64,000 nucleotides of DNA from contig NZ_JAHKRT010000001.1 in NCBI RefSeq assembly GCF_018863195.1, positions 372,001 through 436,000 of the forward strand, read 5' to 3'. The notes beneath the pieces were generated by a model. That model saw only the letters and a list, made by a program, of their open reading frames with translations, made no database searches and was not told where the DNA came from. Positions 39,721 to 45,074 of this stretch are shown here, one piece after another; the first letter of the stretch is position 1, and every line of letters starts with the position of its first letter. The translations under genes were made by a program, and so were the position numbers. Source of the stretch: Sphingomonas quercus (GTDB taxonomy: Bacteria; Pseudomonadota; Alphaproteobacteria; Sphingomonadales; Sphingomonadaceae).

Positions 39721-39992
39721 CGCCACATTTCCGATCGATTTGCATCGTGATGCAATCAGGTCACAATCGGGCAAGTTCCGTTTTTGCATATTGCGGACTC
39801 TTCCGCGTTGGGTTAGCTATTCCCCTGCGACACAGTCGGGCCAAATGGTTTCCGTAACGTTTATCGTCATTGCAACGATACCGCTGCAGTTCCGCAGCAT
39901 GTCGCGAAACAACAAGCACGGTCAAAGGGGATAAGCCCAAGGCGATCCGGTGACGGACGTACTTGGTGCACTCCACGATCTGGGGGGATATC
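39721..39992. promoter_or_regulatory. Leader region of the TonB-receptor operon with two inverted repeats
   Basis: No gene seen here. TTGCATC/GATGCAA (39740-39755, 2-nt centre) and TATCGT/ACGATA (39862-39880, 7-nt spacer) are perfect inverted repeats and candidate operators. A third, CTGC/GCAG, lies further on. GGGGGG precedes the start at 39993. The controlling regulator is not identifiable from this window. Confidence 0.4.
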
Positions 39993-42932
39993 ATGAAATC
40001 TTTTGCGCTCTCTTCGCGCATGGCGATCGCTGTTGCCATGCTGGCAGCTGGCACGGCCGCGCGCGCCCAACAAGCAGCCGACGTCGAACCGCAGCAGGAC
40101 ATCATCGTCACCGGTACGCGCACCACCGGCATGGGTGCCGCGGACAGCCCGGCGCCGATCCAGCTGCTCGGTGGCGATCTCCTGGCCCGCACAGCCCAGC
40201 CGGATCTGGTGCAGACACTTGCGCAGAACCTGCCATCCGTGCAGGCCCAGTCCTTCGGCACCGACCTGCAGCAGGTGAACCTGTCCTTCCGCTTGCGCGG
40301 CCTTAGCCCGAACCACACCCTGGTCCTCGTGAACGGCAAGCGCCGCCACGGCACGGCAAACGTCTCGGTTGCTGGTGGCGTCTTCGGCGGTGCCGCCGCG
40401 CCCGACATGAGCTTCGTGCCTTCCGTTTCAATTGATCATGTGGAAGTGCTGCAGGACGGAGCCGCGGCGCAGTACGGCACAGACGCCATCGCCGGCGTCA
40501 TCAACATCATTCAGAAGAAGGCCAATCACGGCGGCTCGTTCACCGTCGACGGCGGCCAGTATTTCGATCAGAGCAAGGATGGTTCCTGCCCCGGCGGCCT
40601 CGTCGATCATTGCATGCAGACAGGCGGAAAGTCCTGGAGCATCAGCGGGAATATCGGCATCGAGCCGTTTGAAGGCGCCTATCTGAATTTGTCTGCGGAG
40701 CGGCGGCACAAGGGTCGGAGCGTTCGCACCCACTACAACGCCCAATATTACCAGACCGGCCCGGCCAATACGACCGCTGCCGGCAACCTCGCCCTGTATC
40801 CGGATTATCTCAACAATCCTGATTATCCCTATGTGGATCAACGTCAGGGCGATCCGGAAATGGATCTCGCCAACGTGGCCTATAATGCCGGCTATGAATT
40901 CGGCGATTTCGAGATCTACAGTTTCGGCAGCTACGGGCACAAGAACGCCCGGACGCTGCAGGTGGCCCGTCCTCCGGCCAACATCTATTGCGTCGTCGGC
41001 AGTTCCGCCGGCTGCGCGGGCGATGTCGAGGGCGGTTACTATATGAACACCGGCGCGGTGACCGTCGACGGCGTCACCTATCCGGCTGGCCCGGCAAGCG
41101 GCGCCGCCATCGTCTCCGGCCGGACGCGAATGCTGTTCGCCCCGCAGGGCTTCGAGCCGGAGCAGGTTACCTCCGAGACCGACTACGCCTTTACCGGCGG
41201 CTTCAGCGGCGCGTTCGGCGACACGCACTTCGACCTCGCCACTACCTATGGCCGCGACCGCTATGATCTGAGCGTGGCGAATTCGGCCAATGGCACGCTC
41301 TATGCCAATACCGGCGCCACGCCGACAAACATCTACATCGGCAATCTGAAGGCCAGTCAGTGGAGCACCACGCTCGATCTGACCCATGAATTCGACATCG
41401 GCCTCGTCAACCCGGTAACCATCGCCTTCGGTATGGAATATCGCCACGAGACCTACGCCATCGGCGCGGGCGATCCGATGTCCTATTATGGCGGCGGGGC
41501 ACAATCCTTCTACGGCTGGACTCCGGACAGCGCGGCATCGGGCCATGGCAAGCGCAATAACTTCTCCCAATATCTCGATATCAGCGTCAAGCCGACCGAC
41601 AAGTGGATCGTCGACGGCGCAATTCGCCATGAACATTATAGCGACTTCGGCAACACCACCGTGTTCAAGCTGACCAGCCGCTATGATTTCTCCGATGCGA
41701 TTGCCGTCCGTGGCACGGTTTCCACTGGCTTCCGTGCGCCCACATTGGCCGAGGAATATTATTCCGGCATCAACGTCAGCACCAATTATCTGGCAGGCAT
41801 ATTCCCCGCCAATGGCGACATTATTTCGAACCTGGGCTTCGGCAACCTGAAGCCGGAGAAATCAACGAATTTCAGCCTTGGCCTGGTGCTGAAGCCGATC
41901 GATCGTTTGTCGATCACGGTCGACGCCTACATGATCAAGCTGCGTGATCGCATCATGATGACGCCGACCTTCTACGGATATCGGGGCAATTATTGCCCGC
42001 CAGCGAATGTCGTCCAGAACAGCAATCCCAATGATGCACGGACACTGGGGAGCACCCCGACGTCGCCGACCACCCTGTCCTGCAACGTCGCGGCGGCCAT
42101 TGGCACCTACACCTCGCAGCAGGTCACCGACGACAATTATTTCATCAACAACCAGAAGCCGATCTATGACGTCATGACCTCGGTCGTGAGCGATATTCCG
42201 GCTGCGGTGCTCTATCTGAACGCAGACCCCGCCAATGGCCGCGAACTTAGCGGCGGCTACCTGTCGGTACAGTCGTTCGCAAACGCTCTCTCCGTGCGTA
42301 CCAAGGGCATCGACATTCAGGCCAACTACCGCAGCGACTTCGGTCCGGTGCGCGTCAACTGGAACCTGTCGATGAACTATAACAAGAACAAGATCACCAA
42401 GGTGAATCCGCTTCCGGATGGCTTCTATATTTCGGAGATCCAGCCGAACCTGACCACGCTTTACGCGACGGATACCGGCTTCGACAGTTATCCGACTGAG
42501 CATGACAGCCCGCACATTCGCATAACGGCGGGCGCCAACGCGACATGGAACAAGCTTAGCGTGGGGCTGCGTGGCAGCTATTATGGCTCCACCTGGTCAT
42601 CCGCGACGCAGTCCACCGGTTCGATCAACGACGACGGCAGCGTTGTTGGAAGTTGCTCGACCTGTGTCGCGCCCCTGATCTACAAGCAGCGCATCAACGC
42701 TGCCTTCCTTGCCGACCTCGACATCAGCTATCAGCTCACCGACTTCCTCAGGCTGACGATTGGCGCGAACAACCTGTTCAATCATTATCCGAACGGGGTG
42801 AGCTGGCAGTATAACCAGGAGGTGAAGGAGCGGATCGGCAACGGTAGCAACCTCACCGGCCCCTACCAGAACGGTTCGCCCTATGGTTATAATGGCGGCT
42901 ATTATTATGCCAGGGTCGGCTTCAAGTTTTAA
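39993..42932 (+). CDS. TonB-dependent outer-membrane receptor
   Basis: 979 residues. Signal peptide MKSFALSSRMAIAVAMLAAG is followed by QDIIVTGTRTTG, the plug start (TonB-box region), plug motifs (FRLRGLSPNHTLVLVNGKRR, QYGTDAIAGVINII), then a long beta-barrel ending YYYARVGFKF with a C-terminal aromatic residue. It should import a large substrate into the periplasm. Followed at 9 nt by the flavoprotein gene, suggesting that the imported compound is its substrate. The ATG 39993 follows GGGGGG; an earlier start is possible. Confidence 0.95.
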   Translation: MKSFALSSRMAIAVAMLAAGTAARAQQAADVEPQQDIIVTGTRTTGMGAADSPAPIQLLGGDLLARTAQPDLVQTLAQNLPSVQAQSFGTDLQQVNLSFRLRGLSPNHTLVLVNGKRRHGTANVSVAGGVFGGAAAPDMSFVPSVSIDHVEVLQDGAAAQYGTDAIAGVINIIQKKANHGGSFTVDGGQYFDQSKDGSCPGGLVDHCMQTGGKSWSISGNIGIEPFEGAYLNLSAERRHKGRSVRTHYNAQYYQTGPANTTAAGNLALYPDYLNNPDYPYVDQRQGDPEMDLANVAYNAGYEFGDFEIYSFGSYGHKNARTLQVARPPANIYCVVGSSAGCAGDVEGGYYMNTGAVTVDGVTYPAGPASGAAIVSGRTRMLFAPQGFEPEQVTSETDYAFTGGFSGAFGDTHFDLATTYGRDRYDLSVANSANGTLYANTGATPTNIYIGNLKASQWSTTLDLTHEFDIGLVNPVTIAFGMEYRHETYAIGAGDPMSYYGGGAQSFYGWTPDSAASGHGKRNNFSQYLDISVKPTDKWIVDGAIRHEHYSDFGNTTVFKLTSRYDFSDAIAVRGTVSTGFRAPTLAEEYYSGINVSTNYLAGIFPANGDIISNLGFGNLKPEKSTNFSLGLVLKPIDRLSITVDAYMIKLRDRIMMTPTFYGYRGNYCPPANVVQNSNPNDARTLGSTPTSPTTLSCNVAAAIGTYTSQQVTDDNYFINNQKPIYDVMTSVVSDIPAAVLYLNADPANGRELSGGYLSVQSFANALSVRTKGIDIQANYRSDFGPVRVNWNLSMNYNKNKITKVNPLPDGFYISEIQPNLTTLYATDTGFDSYPTEHDSPHIRITAGANATWNKLSVGLRGSYYGSTWSSATQSTGSINDDGSVVGSCSTCVAPLIYKQRINAAFLADLDISYQLTDFLRLTIGANNLFNHYPNGVSWQYNQEVKERIGNGSNLTGPYQNGSPYGYNGGYYYARVGFKF

Positions 42933-42941
42933 GGGGGTGTA

Positions 42942-44174
42942 ATGTCGGAGGACATCGGGCTTGCGCGCAGACAACTGCTCACAGGCTCGATAGCCCTCAG
43001 CGGGCTGAGCCTCGCCGGATGCACGACCGGGCTTGCGAGAAGCGGGCCCGGTCGTACGCCGTCTGGGCCGATGCTCGCCCCGATGCGCGTCTCGCCGAAC
43101 GAGTTGGTCGACGTGAAATGCTGCATCCGGCCATTCCGCGCGCAGGGCTGCCGGCTGGACGCCGAGCAGCTCGGCGACACGCTGGTCATCCATAATTACG
43201 GCCATGGCGGCAGCGGCTGGTCGCTGTCTTGGGGATCGGCGGAGATCGCGGTCGGCAAGGCGATGTCGGTCCTGCCGAGGGATATCGCCGTGGTCGGCTG
43301 CGGCATCGTCGGGTTGACCGCAGCGGTAGTCGCGCAGCGCGCAGGGCTCAACGTCACCATCTACGCACGCGAGATGTTCTCCCGCACGCGATCGGTGCGG
43401 GCGTTTGGCGCGTGGACGCCGTCGTCGCGCATCGCGCTCACCGAGCCGGCCGGGCCGGCCTTCGCCGCCCTGTGGGAGCAGATGGCGCGCATTTCCTGGC
43501 GCTATTTCCGTGCCTGTCTCGGCCTGCCGGGGCAGCCGGTCGAGTTCATCGACAGCTACAGCCTCTCGGACACGCCGCCCCGCAATCGGGAGCACGCACC
43601 GGCGACGAGCAGCTTCGCTGCCACCGGCGTGCCGCAGAGCGAAGGCGAGTTCGCCGAATATGATTCGCTGGTCAGGGATATCGTCCCCTCCTCGACCAAC
43701 CTTGCGGCCGGCGAGAACCCGTTCGGCACGGCCTATGCCAGGCGGCGAAGCCAGATGCATTTCAACTTCACCGGCTATGGCCATATGCTGCTGAGCGAGT
43801 TCTTCGCGATGGGCGGGAAATTTCAGAACCGCGATTTCCATTCGCCGGCGGATATCGCCGCACTGCCGGAGAAGGTGGTGATCAACTGCCCCGGCTATGC
43901 CGCGCGCGACCTGTGGCGCGACCAGACGATCATTCCGGTGCGCGGCCAGACCGGCTGGCTGATCCCCCAGCCCGAGGCGCATTACGGGCTCGGCTATGGC
44001 GGCGTGTCGCTGCTGTCGAAGAGCGACGGGGTGATGGTGATGCACACCGACAGCACGCTCGGTGACATGGAAGGGGTCGGCAACAGCATGGAGCTGCCCG
44101 ACCGCAGCAATATCGAGGCGGGACTGGCGATCGTCGCGCCGCTGTTCGCGCGCATGGCGGGAGGCCGGGCGTGA
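42942..44174 (+). CDS. Exported, circularly permuted D-amino acid oxidase-like flavoprotein
   Basis: 410 residues. The Tat signal ARRQLLTGSIALSGLSLAGC ends in a lipobox cysteine (C27). Residues ~57-107 (VKCCIRPFRAQGCRLDAEQ; VIHNYGHGGSGWSLSWG, NYGHGG at 85-90) match the C-terminal end of DAAO. The Rossmann motif GCGIVG follows at 119-124, then AFGAWTPSSR and other normal N-terminal DAAO features. The end (NIEAGLAIVAPLF) matches the part before the FRPxRP region of ordinary DAAO. Order is thus permuted. It should oxidise an amino acid in the periplasm. Starts 9 nt after the TonB receptor; overlaps the cytochrome gene by 4 nt. Confidence 0.9.
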   Translation: MSEDIGLARRQLLTGSIALSGLSLAGCTTGLARSGPGRTPSGPMLAPMRVSPNELVDVKCCIRPFRAQGCRLDAEQLGDTLVIHNYGHGGSGWSLSWGSAEIAVGKAMSVLPRDIAVVGCGIVGLTAAVVAQRAGLNVTIYAREMFSRTRSVRAFGAWTPSSRIALTEPAGPAFAALWEQMARISWRYFRACLGLPGQPVEFIDSYSLSDTPPRNREHAPATSSFAATGVPQSEGEFAEYDSLVRDIVPSSTNLAAGENPFGTAYARRRSQMHFNFTGYGHMLLSEFFAMGGKFQNRDFHSPADIAALPEKVVINCPGYAARDLWRDQTIIPVRGQTGWLIPQPEAHYGLGYGGVSLLSKSDGVMVMHTDSTLGDMEGVGNSMELPDRSNIEAGLAIVAPLFARMAGGRA

Positions 44175-44590
44175 GCCGCCTTGTCGCCCTCGTCTGCCTG
44201 CCGCCGGCGCTGGCGCTCGCCGTCGCCGCGCCCGGCCAGCGGCCCGCCGCCAGCACCGCGACCGGCGTCTATAGCGAAGCGCAGGCGGCGCAGGGCGCGA
44301 TGCTCTACAAGGACGCCTGCGCGGCCTGCCATGGCGAGACGCTGGCGGGCACCTATGAGATCCCCGCCCTTACCGGCCGTTTCCTGCGCAACTGGTCGAA
44401 CGGATCGGTGGGCACGCTGTTCGATTATATCGGCCGAGCGATGCCGCAAATGGCGCCGGGGTCACTGACGCCGGAGGACAATGCCCGCATCGTCGCCTAT
44501 CTGCTCAAGGCGAACGGGATGCCGGCGGGCGCGCAGCCCCTGCCGGCGGATCAGGGCGCGCTGGACCGGATCGCGTTTGCCCCGCGTTAA
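44171..44590 (+). CDS. Exported c-type cytochrome
   Basis: 139 residues starting at GTG 44171, overlapping the flavoprotein stop by 4 nt. The signal-like N-terminus (SRLVALVCLPPALALAVA) is followed by heme-binding C50-A-A-C53-H54. M91 or M94 in RAMPQMAPGS is the likely axial ligand. Single-heme class I type. The coupling implies that it accepts electrons from the neighbouring flavoprotein, passing them to the respiratory chain. Confidence 0.92.
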   Translation: MSRLVALVCLPPALALAVAAPGQRPAASTATGVYSEAQAAQGAMLYKDACAACHGETLAGTYEIPALTGRFLRNWSNGSVGTLFDYIGRAMPQMAPGSLTPEDNARIVAYLLKANGMPAGAQPLPADQGALDRIAFAPR

Positions 44591-44684
44591 CAATGGCCTC
44601 GAATCTTGTTCAAGATCAAAGGTTTCACGATACGCCCGATGATATCTGTCCATTCTGACCGGACCAGATTCTGAGGGAATGACT

Positions 44685-45074
44685 ATGCCGAACATGCGAC
44701 CATTGGTGGGCGCCATCATCCTGGCGGTGGCGATGGGGGGCGGAAGCCTTGCCCCCGCAGCGGCGCCATCGGCCGCGCGGCCCGATCCCCGGATCACCCG
44801 GGCGTGGCTGACGGGCGGGTGGAGCTATGAGGGCGGGTGCGAGAATGATCAGGGCGTGGCCTTTGCGGCGGACGGCAAGGTGCAGGATGTCGACGGCCAT
44901 GGAAGCTGGAGCCTGCGCGGCGACGTCGTCACGCTGACGATCCGCGAAGTCATCGAAACCGACGAAGGCGCCCCGGTGCGCCTTCCCACGCCGCAGGTCG
45001 TGCAACATAAGGTCCGCTGGCTGGGGCCGAAGGCAGCGATGCTGGGAGACGACAAGATCGTCAAATGCCAGTGA
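44685..45074 (+). CDS. Small exported protein, unknown function
   Basis: About 129 residues. Signal peptide MRPLVGAIILAVAMGGGSLAPAA then a ~90-residue domain beginning WLTGGWSYEGGCENDQG, like small secreted domains that bind ligands or metals, with two cysteines (one terminal). The preferred ATG 44685 has GAGGGA 6 nt upstream; ATG 44679 is an alternative. No family recognised. A partial inverted repeat upstream (44654-44668) resembles the GntR-type operators at 49379-49412. Confidence 0.75.
   Translation: MPNMRPLVGAIILAVAMGGGSLAPAAAPSAARPDPRITRAWLTGGWSYEGGCENDQGVAFAADGKVQDVDGHGSWSLRGDVVTLTIREVIETDEGAPVRLPTPQVVQHKVRWLGPKAAMLGDDKIVKCQ

Follow-up and report, generated by a model that had tools for sequence, protein, structure and literature searches.

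We found that a gene in the window (the whole stretch of 64,000 nucleotides analysed here) encodes a circularly permuted flavoprotein of the D-amino acid oxidase (DAAO) family. DAAO is a model flavoenzyme that has been much used and studied. Sequence comparison established the permutation and its conservation among relatives, and the fold predicted for the permuted chain is DAAO-like. We infer that the protein is a putative periplasmic amino-acid dehydrogenase. The first-pass annotation of this DNA knew of no description of such a form, and no description of a natural DAAO permutant was found in the open-access full texts searched, most subscription papers lying outside that set. According to a passage of PMC4432964, 54 circular permutations, none of them named, occur among Pfam domain cases, and one of these may be of the DAAO kind.

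Segment order, rotation and predicted structure

The features of the locus are collected in Table 1. An R-P-x-R...HNYGHGG segment (residues 55-110) precedes the GxGxxG Rossmann strand (from residue 114), the reverse of the order in the DAAO/D-aspartate oxidase (DASPO) family, in which GxGxxG comes first and the HNYGHGG segment last. CIRPFRAQGCRLDAEQ starts at residue 61, HNYGHGGSGWSLSWG occupies residues 84-98 and GCGIVG residues 119-124; IAVVGCGIVGLT, the dinucleotide-binding strand, occurs in the 410-aa protein only after CIRPFRAQGCRLDAEQ...HNYGHGGSGWSLSWG. The first-pass annotation had claimed this reversed order, and we confirmed it together with the open reading frame and the motif positions given there. 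Its further claim that the C-terminal end stops where FRPxRP would start also holds, as the tail aligned up to the residues just before the human FRPVRP.

Table 1. Coordinates of the permuted gene, its parts and its neighbours within the window
Feature	Position	Strand	Basis or remark
TonB-dependent outer-membrane receptor	39963..42932	+	Pfam TonB_dep_Rec and Plug
Circularly permuted DAAO-family flavoprotein, 410 aa	42942..44174	+	ORF, Pfam, phmmer, rotation scans
Tat-type signal with lipobox	42942..43040	+	RR at residues 9-10, LAGC ending at Cys27
Moved segment, residues 55-110	43104..43271	+	Matches C-terminal end of ordinary DAAO; strands E55-66, E74-77, E80-84, helix 96-110
Arg63, counterpart of human DAAO Arg283	43128..43130	+	
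HNYGHGG signature, residues 84-90	43191..43211	+	
FAD domain, Rossmann start (GCGIVG 119-124) to C-terminal end	43281..44171	+	Corresponds to ordinary DAAO residues 1 to about 280; Pfam DAO 114-369; best rotation cut at residue 114
Small c-type cytochrome (CAACH), signal-like N-terminus	44171..44590	+	Cytochrome_CBB3 3e-13

The Pfam DAO profile (PF01266) scored 65.5 bits against a curated cut-off of 27.9, which places the protein in the superfamily, and it matched 45 of the 45 members of alignment A1 at E 0.001 or better. Its best stretch (residues 114-369) covers profile positions 1-270 of 353. This matters for annotation, because the best stretch omits the moved catalytic segment of the window protein. 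The annotated permuted cases examined carry only the label 'FAD-dependent oxidoreductase'. A phmmer search against the PDB aligned residues 59-107 with residues 324-372 of the Rasamsonia DAAO 7ct4, and residues 110-337 with its residues 21-239 (48.6 bits). Since the stretches of query and chain are reversed, the segment order is swapped relative to 7ct4. With 8hy5 and 5zj9 three pieces each were aligned, the first piece of the query being the last of the chain. For comparison, L147, an ordinary DAAO from another alphaproteobacterium, aligned with 2du8 residues 1-330 as a single unbroken stretch.

Every rotation of residues 46-410 was scored by global alignment against nine ordinary DAAOs (seven bacterial and two human). 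In this permutation-aware alignment, a check proposed along with the original claim, the mean score rose from 111 in the natural order to 185 in the best rotation, whose cut at residue 114 coincides with the first Rossmann strand. Ten shuffled copies of the window protein gave best scores of 14-23 versus 185 for the rotated protein, and the nine ordinary DAAOs scored best in their own order or within 3.1 points of their best. The rotated window protein showed 30-32% identity over 307-311 aligned residues to human DAAO, L147 and L185, and gave one continuous alignment with moved ends and a single best joint, as a circular permutant does. An HMM of the nine ordinary DAAOs was also tried as a rotation test; it cut the rotations into local pieces and did not separate them, and global pairwise scoring was used instead.

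Against four ordinary DAAOs, rotation raised the score in 145 of 145 distinct permuted relatives (median gain 76), with best cuts located -35 to +5 residues from the GxGxxG motif. The lowest gain (5.5) came from the interrupted gene L027 and fell below that of control L177 (10.5), while the next lowest was 48. Three glycine-oxidase-like controls gained 0.25, 1.25 and 10.5 points, likewise against four ordinary DAAOs.

An AlphaFold2 model of the window protein, calculated from the 45-row alignment A1, had a pLDDT of 91.5 and a pTM of 0.87. The pLDDT was below 50 in most of residues 1-33, and residues 41-110 were predicted with high confidence within one compact model. The modelled elements run as strands 55-66, 74-77 and 80-84, a helix 96-110, a three-residue link and strand 114-118, an order shared by the model of L029, a relative from a second subfamily (pLDDT 87.9, pTM 0.85). 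Foldseek ranks 1-33 with both models were DAAO or D-aspartate oxidase chains by title, some titles being incomplete. The in-order TM values of the target were 0.48-0.66 for the window model and 0.55-0.68 for the L029 model; at ranks 1-33 the fits of the window model were loose (rmsd 4.0-7.7 over 301-336 columns) and those of the L029 model tighter (rmsd 2.6-5.5). Foldseek makes in-order alignments only, therefore the moved segment cannot count in these fits, and the TM values are as expected were only the unmoved part aligned. The predicted fold is DAAO-like, and NYGHGG would lie close to the flavin in the window protein. Rotation, the best cut, the order conserved in relatives and the DAAO-like predicted fold together support the original interpretation as a circular permutation and not a domain loss.

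Relatives and history of the permuted branch

Of 249 genomes of the same family, 87 gave some match at E 0.001, and in 53 the best E was no higher than 1e-20; the gene was not found in the four same-genus genomes listed in this family scan. A scan of named genomes detected at least 559 relatives by tblastn at E 0.001, of which the best 80 were examined. The permuted order lies in one open reading frame in 79 of these 80 and is split over two frames in the remaining one (L102), so that the conservation in homologues which the original claim had left to be checked was observed among the best 80 of at least 559. These 80 were distributed in Sphingomonas, Sphingobium, Novosphingobium, Acetobacter, Komagataeibacter, Gluconacetobacter, Caulobacter, Reyranella, Niveispirillum, Bradyrhizobium, Dyella, Edaphobacter and other Acidobacteria, an Opitutaceae MAG and others. 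The two reading pieces of L102 (5841-7248, Gluconacetobacter tumulicola) perhaps reflect a broken gene or a sequencing error. A plasmid collection added permuted forms from Kozakia, Niveispirillum, Rhizobium, Bradyrhizobium and the actinomycete Nonomuraea.

By motif order, 190 loci comprised 168 permuted open reading frames, eight ordinary ones and 14 without both motif patterns. On inspection of the last group, L013, L102, L164, L170, L171, L180 and L184 proved permuted and L189 ordinary, while L168, L169 and L175-L178 lacked HNYGHGG. Duplicates are numerous among the 190 loci (L065 = L066 = L147; L001 = L053 = L159 = the window gene), and the distinct permuted proteins therefore number 145. 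Homologues with a second, normal C-terminal copy of the motif, named at the outset as evidence that would speak against the permutation, were not encountered: a second HNYGHGG was found in none of 176 motif-bearing open reading frames. HNYGH and GxGxxG lie at a spacing of 33 residues in 153 of the 168 permuted frames. Alignment A1 was drawn from 49 loci with a match and omits L001 (the window gene itself), L011 (close to L008), L013 (missed by the motif pattern), L027 (internal stop) and L047 (no start found).

A search with the ordinary protein L147 reached E 1e-6 in 24 of 398 Pseudomonadota genomes; 18 of these matches were permuted, six lacked HNYGHGG, and none of the 24 was an ordinary DAAO form. 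A class-wide profile search, which favours permuted forms because its query was permuted, matched 16 of 385 genomes, 15 with permuted forms and one with an ordinary form (L147 itself).

For phylogenetic analysis the permuted rows were rotated to the ordinary order, and the tree was left unrooted and calculated without glycine-oxidase-like proteins and the divergent L148. One branch with support of 100/99 separated 43 permuted from nine ordinary rows. With L148 and three glycine-oxidase-like outgroup proteins included, support for the ordinary clade was only 88/59. Rooting by these three proteins was discarded, as their branches were very long and the root was not clear. A single permutation event is the simplest reading of this history. 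Human enzymes, actinomycetes and the glycine-oxidase-like outgroup all have the ordinary order, which suggests that this order came first. The permuted type gives the impression of an ancient DAAO branch that has spread widely; its presence in several phyla shows that the moved joint is tolerated and offers a natural starting point for engineering. L148 (3614-4795, minus strand), from a 1.9 Mb genome of another family of the same class, is a very divergent permuted form with an end branch of 3.27.

Active site, export signal and neighbouring genes

At the position of human Arg283 all 44 permuted and all nine ordinary rows carry Arg, and His307, Tyr309, Gly310, His311 and Gly312 are unchanged in every one of these rows. 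GxGxxG is kept in all 44 permuted rows. The window protein thus possesses the HNYGHGG loop and the carboxylate Arg of the DAAO/DASPO family, but not its Tyr228: this position is Tyr in nine of nine ordinary rows and Ser in the window protein, and it is occupied in the 44 permuted rows by Ser (18), Tyr (15), Asn (5), Gly (3), Gln (2) and Phe (1). The Tyr224 position is gapped in 40 of the 44 permuted rows; being Tyr in only one of nine ordinary rows, it is uninformative and was dropped as a family test. In human DAAO, Arg283, whose counterpart in the window protein is Arg63, and Tyr228 bind the substrate carboxylate. Since the Tyr228 position is altered, the substrate may not be an ordinary D-amino acid. 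As the Arg283 counterpart and the loop are kept and Tyr228 is often replaced, amino-acid chemistry is likely, with a pocket that appears from these residues to be altered in the window's subfamily.

The closest known system is DAAO/D-aspartate oxidase (human 2du8 and 6rkf; Rasamsonia 7ct4; bacterial L147 and L153), which has GxGxxG, the Arg283 counterpart, HNYGHGG and the best fold matches in common with the window protein. Unlike ordinary DAAO, the window protein has permuted segments and, in pairwise alignments, a mid-protein insertion; most permuted forms also differ by a Tat/lipoprotein-like signal, many by the replaced Tyr228, and one clade by a cytochrome c neighbour. DadA (D-amino acid dehydrogenase) and ThiO (glycine oxidase), which are members of Pfam DAO, the large flavoprotein family of the window protein, have the ordinary order, unlike the window protein. 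The dehydrogenase role of DadA is the role proposed here for the window protein. The NCBIfam scores stayed far below the cut-offs for DadA (NF001933, 20.7 of 383 bits) and ThiO (19.7 of 250.8 bits), and six matches labelled by eye as of the DadA/ThiO kind lacked HNYGHGG.

Residues 1-33 of the window protein look like a Tat-type lipoprotein signal. R9 and R10 are invariant in the 45 rows of A1, partly by construction, since start codons just before the RR pair were preferred for this alignment. A Tat-like pattern precedes the moved segment in 134 of the 145 distinct permuted proteins versus 18% of shuffled segments, and a lipobox-like Cys occurs in 95 of the 145 versus 14%. As background, the Tat-like pattern was present in 159 of 765 first-70-residue stretches of genes around the loci, permuted genes included. 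The 11 permuted proteins without the pattern include the Rhizobium, Bradyrhizobium and Nonomuraea forms. In the Rhizobium and Bradyrhizobium plasmids the permuted genes (L151:4920-5981 and L154:5001-6053) encode no evident signal and lie between genes for an FAD-binding oxidoreductase and a thiamine pyrophosphate enzyme. Export is therefore not universal, nor is it bound up with the permutation; the gene cluster shared by these rhizobial forms is a different one. Among the proteins released by Asaia bogorensis, a passage of PMC12502724 lists one under the name D-amino acid oxidase.

The ATG of the permuted gene lies about 10 nt after the receptor stop codon, and its own stop is overlapped by 4 nt by the GTG start of the cytochrome c gene. 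A cytochrome c homologue was located directly downstream in 20 of the 80 named loci (L067-L084, L089 and L102; best 80 of at least 559) and in Kozakia too. An adjacent homologue was absent from the other 60, and the cytochrome link is therefore limited to one clade. By a separate CxxCH pattern, 16 of 79 loci (again of the best 80 of at least 559) had a downstream cytochrome, nine of them overlapping the permuted gene. Receptor homologues were detected in the examined flanks of 13 of the 80 loci (best 80 of at least 559), a weak link because flank lengths differ and TonB-dependent receptors are common in such bacteria. A RidA-family gene (PF01042) was found in flanks of differing length at eight of the 80 loci (L067-L069, L071-L073, L076 and L096; best 80 of at least 559) and was not found in the window. 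At L096 the receptor, permuted and RidA genes stand in succession. RidA proteins hydrolyse imines from amino-acid oxidation and are typically not exported. The RidA-family protein of L071 (10489-10989, minus strand) and its homologues have by eye a signal-like N-terminal stretch and are perhaps exported. Enamine/imine deaminase is named among RidA functions in a passage of PMC9537276.

Proposed function and rival readings

In the permuted chain the last roughly 60 residues of DAAO, namely three strands, which bring along the carboxylate Arg and the NYGHGG loop, and the final helix, now stand at the front. A linker of three residues joins them to the first Rossmann strand, and the new ends fall just before the FRPxR strand. 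The protein would fold with FAD in the cytoplasm, exit by the Tat route and be anchored as a lipoprotein. In the periplasm it could act on an alpha-amino acid, whether a D-amino acid or a near analogue of one, which Arg63 would bind, and oxidise it to the imino acid; in the window's clade the electrons would pass to the adjacently encoded cytochrome c, rather than or as well as to O2. The imino acid would then be hydrolysed to keto acid and ammonia, with help from a RidA-family protein in some species, and the TonB-dependent receptor may import the substrate or a substrate-containing peptide. We regard such a permuted, periplasmic DAAO-type flavoenzyme, with putative amino-acid oxidation and cytochrome c as acceptor in the window's clade, as reasonably probable. 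The role of bacterial DAAOs is called largely unknown in a passage of PMC4699246, and the linked cytochrome c, RidA and receptor genes make it testable.

The same permuted fold could act on a substrate other than a D-amino acid, such as a secondary amino acid, an amino-sugar acid or another amine with a carboxylate. The Tyr228 position, which is Ser, Asn, Gly, Gln or Phe in 29 of the 44 permuted rows, points in this direction, and a cluster for the chitin product GlcNAc1A described in a passage of PMC9537276, with TonB-dependent receptors, a RidA protein and a D-amino-acid-deaminase-like enzyme, shows that such clusters can serve other substrates. However, the carboxylate Arg and the YGHG loop core kept in 44 of 44 rows and the peptidase-like neighbours in Kozakia argue against it, and we consider this reading possible but somewhat doubtful. 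A true oxidase that passes electrons to O2 and forms H2O2 in the periplasm, with the cytochrome c a bystander or active in another step, would agree with the best-matching solved relatives, which are named oxidases, and with the 60 of the best 80 loci that have no adjacent cytochrome c homologue. It fits poorly with a cytochrome gene that overlaps or closely follows the permuted gene in the window's clade (named Sphingomonadaceae and Acetobacteraceae), and is unlikely.

Taken alone the sequence displays only a different order, which would also result if a short NYGHGG domain had been fused before a C-truncated flavoprotein without packing in its old place. A fusion of this kind is very improbable given the lack of two-motif frames, the near-constant spacing of HNYGH and GxGxxG, the C-terminal end at the start point of the moved segment, the continuous alignment obtained by rotation and the confident placement of residues 41-110 inside the compact model. 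A sequencing, assembly or gene-calling artefact found no support and is hardly credible, as the order recurs in independent genomes of Alpha- and Gammaproteobacteria, Acidobacteriota, an Opitutaceae MAG and Nonomuraea.

Beyond the periplasmic cytochrome-linked enzyme favoured for the window, we tentatively propose that the permuted branch is the main DAAO form in Pseudomonadota, arose by one permutation and gave rise in an exported lineage to a periplasmic amino-acid dehydrogenase wired to a cytochrome c of its own, by which amino acids would be burned outside the inner membrane without H2O2 formation; we hold this broader history to be quite possible.

Several further observations concern the neighbourhood. 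Neighbour families were built from codon-usage gene calls, raw longest-ORF calls being noisy. A PHROGs search gave no matches, and the window ORF 44679-45074 (131 aa, after the cytochrome c gene) had no Pfam or NCBIfam match above cut-off. The make-up of the Kozakia cluster, with a receptor, a second FAD oxidoreductase, two hydrolases of the beta-lactamase family and others of S9 and S15 type, suggests that peptides are used. At L067, L068, L069, L071, L072 and L076 the surroundings of the permuted gene share two recurrent neighbour clusters, and one of their members (L076) is a response regulator.
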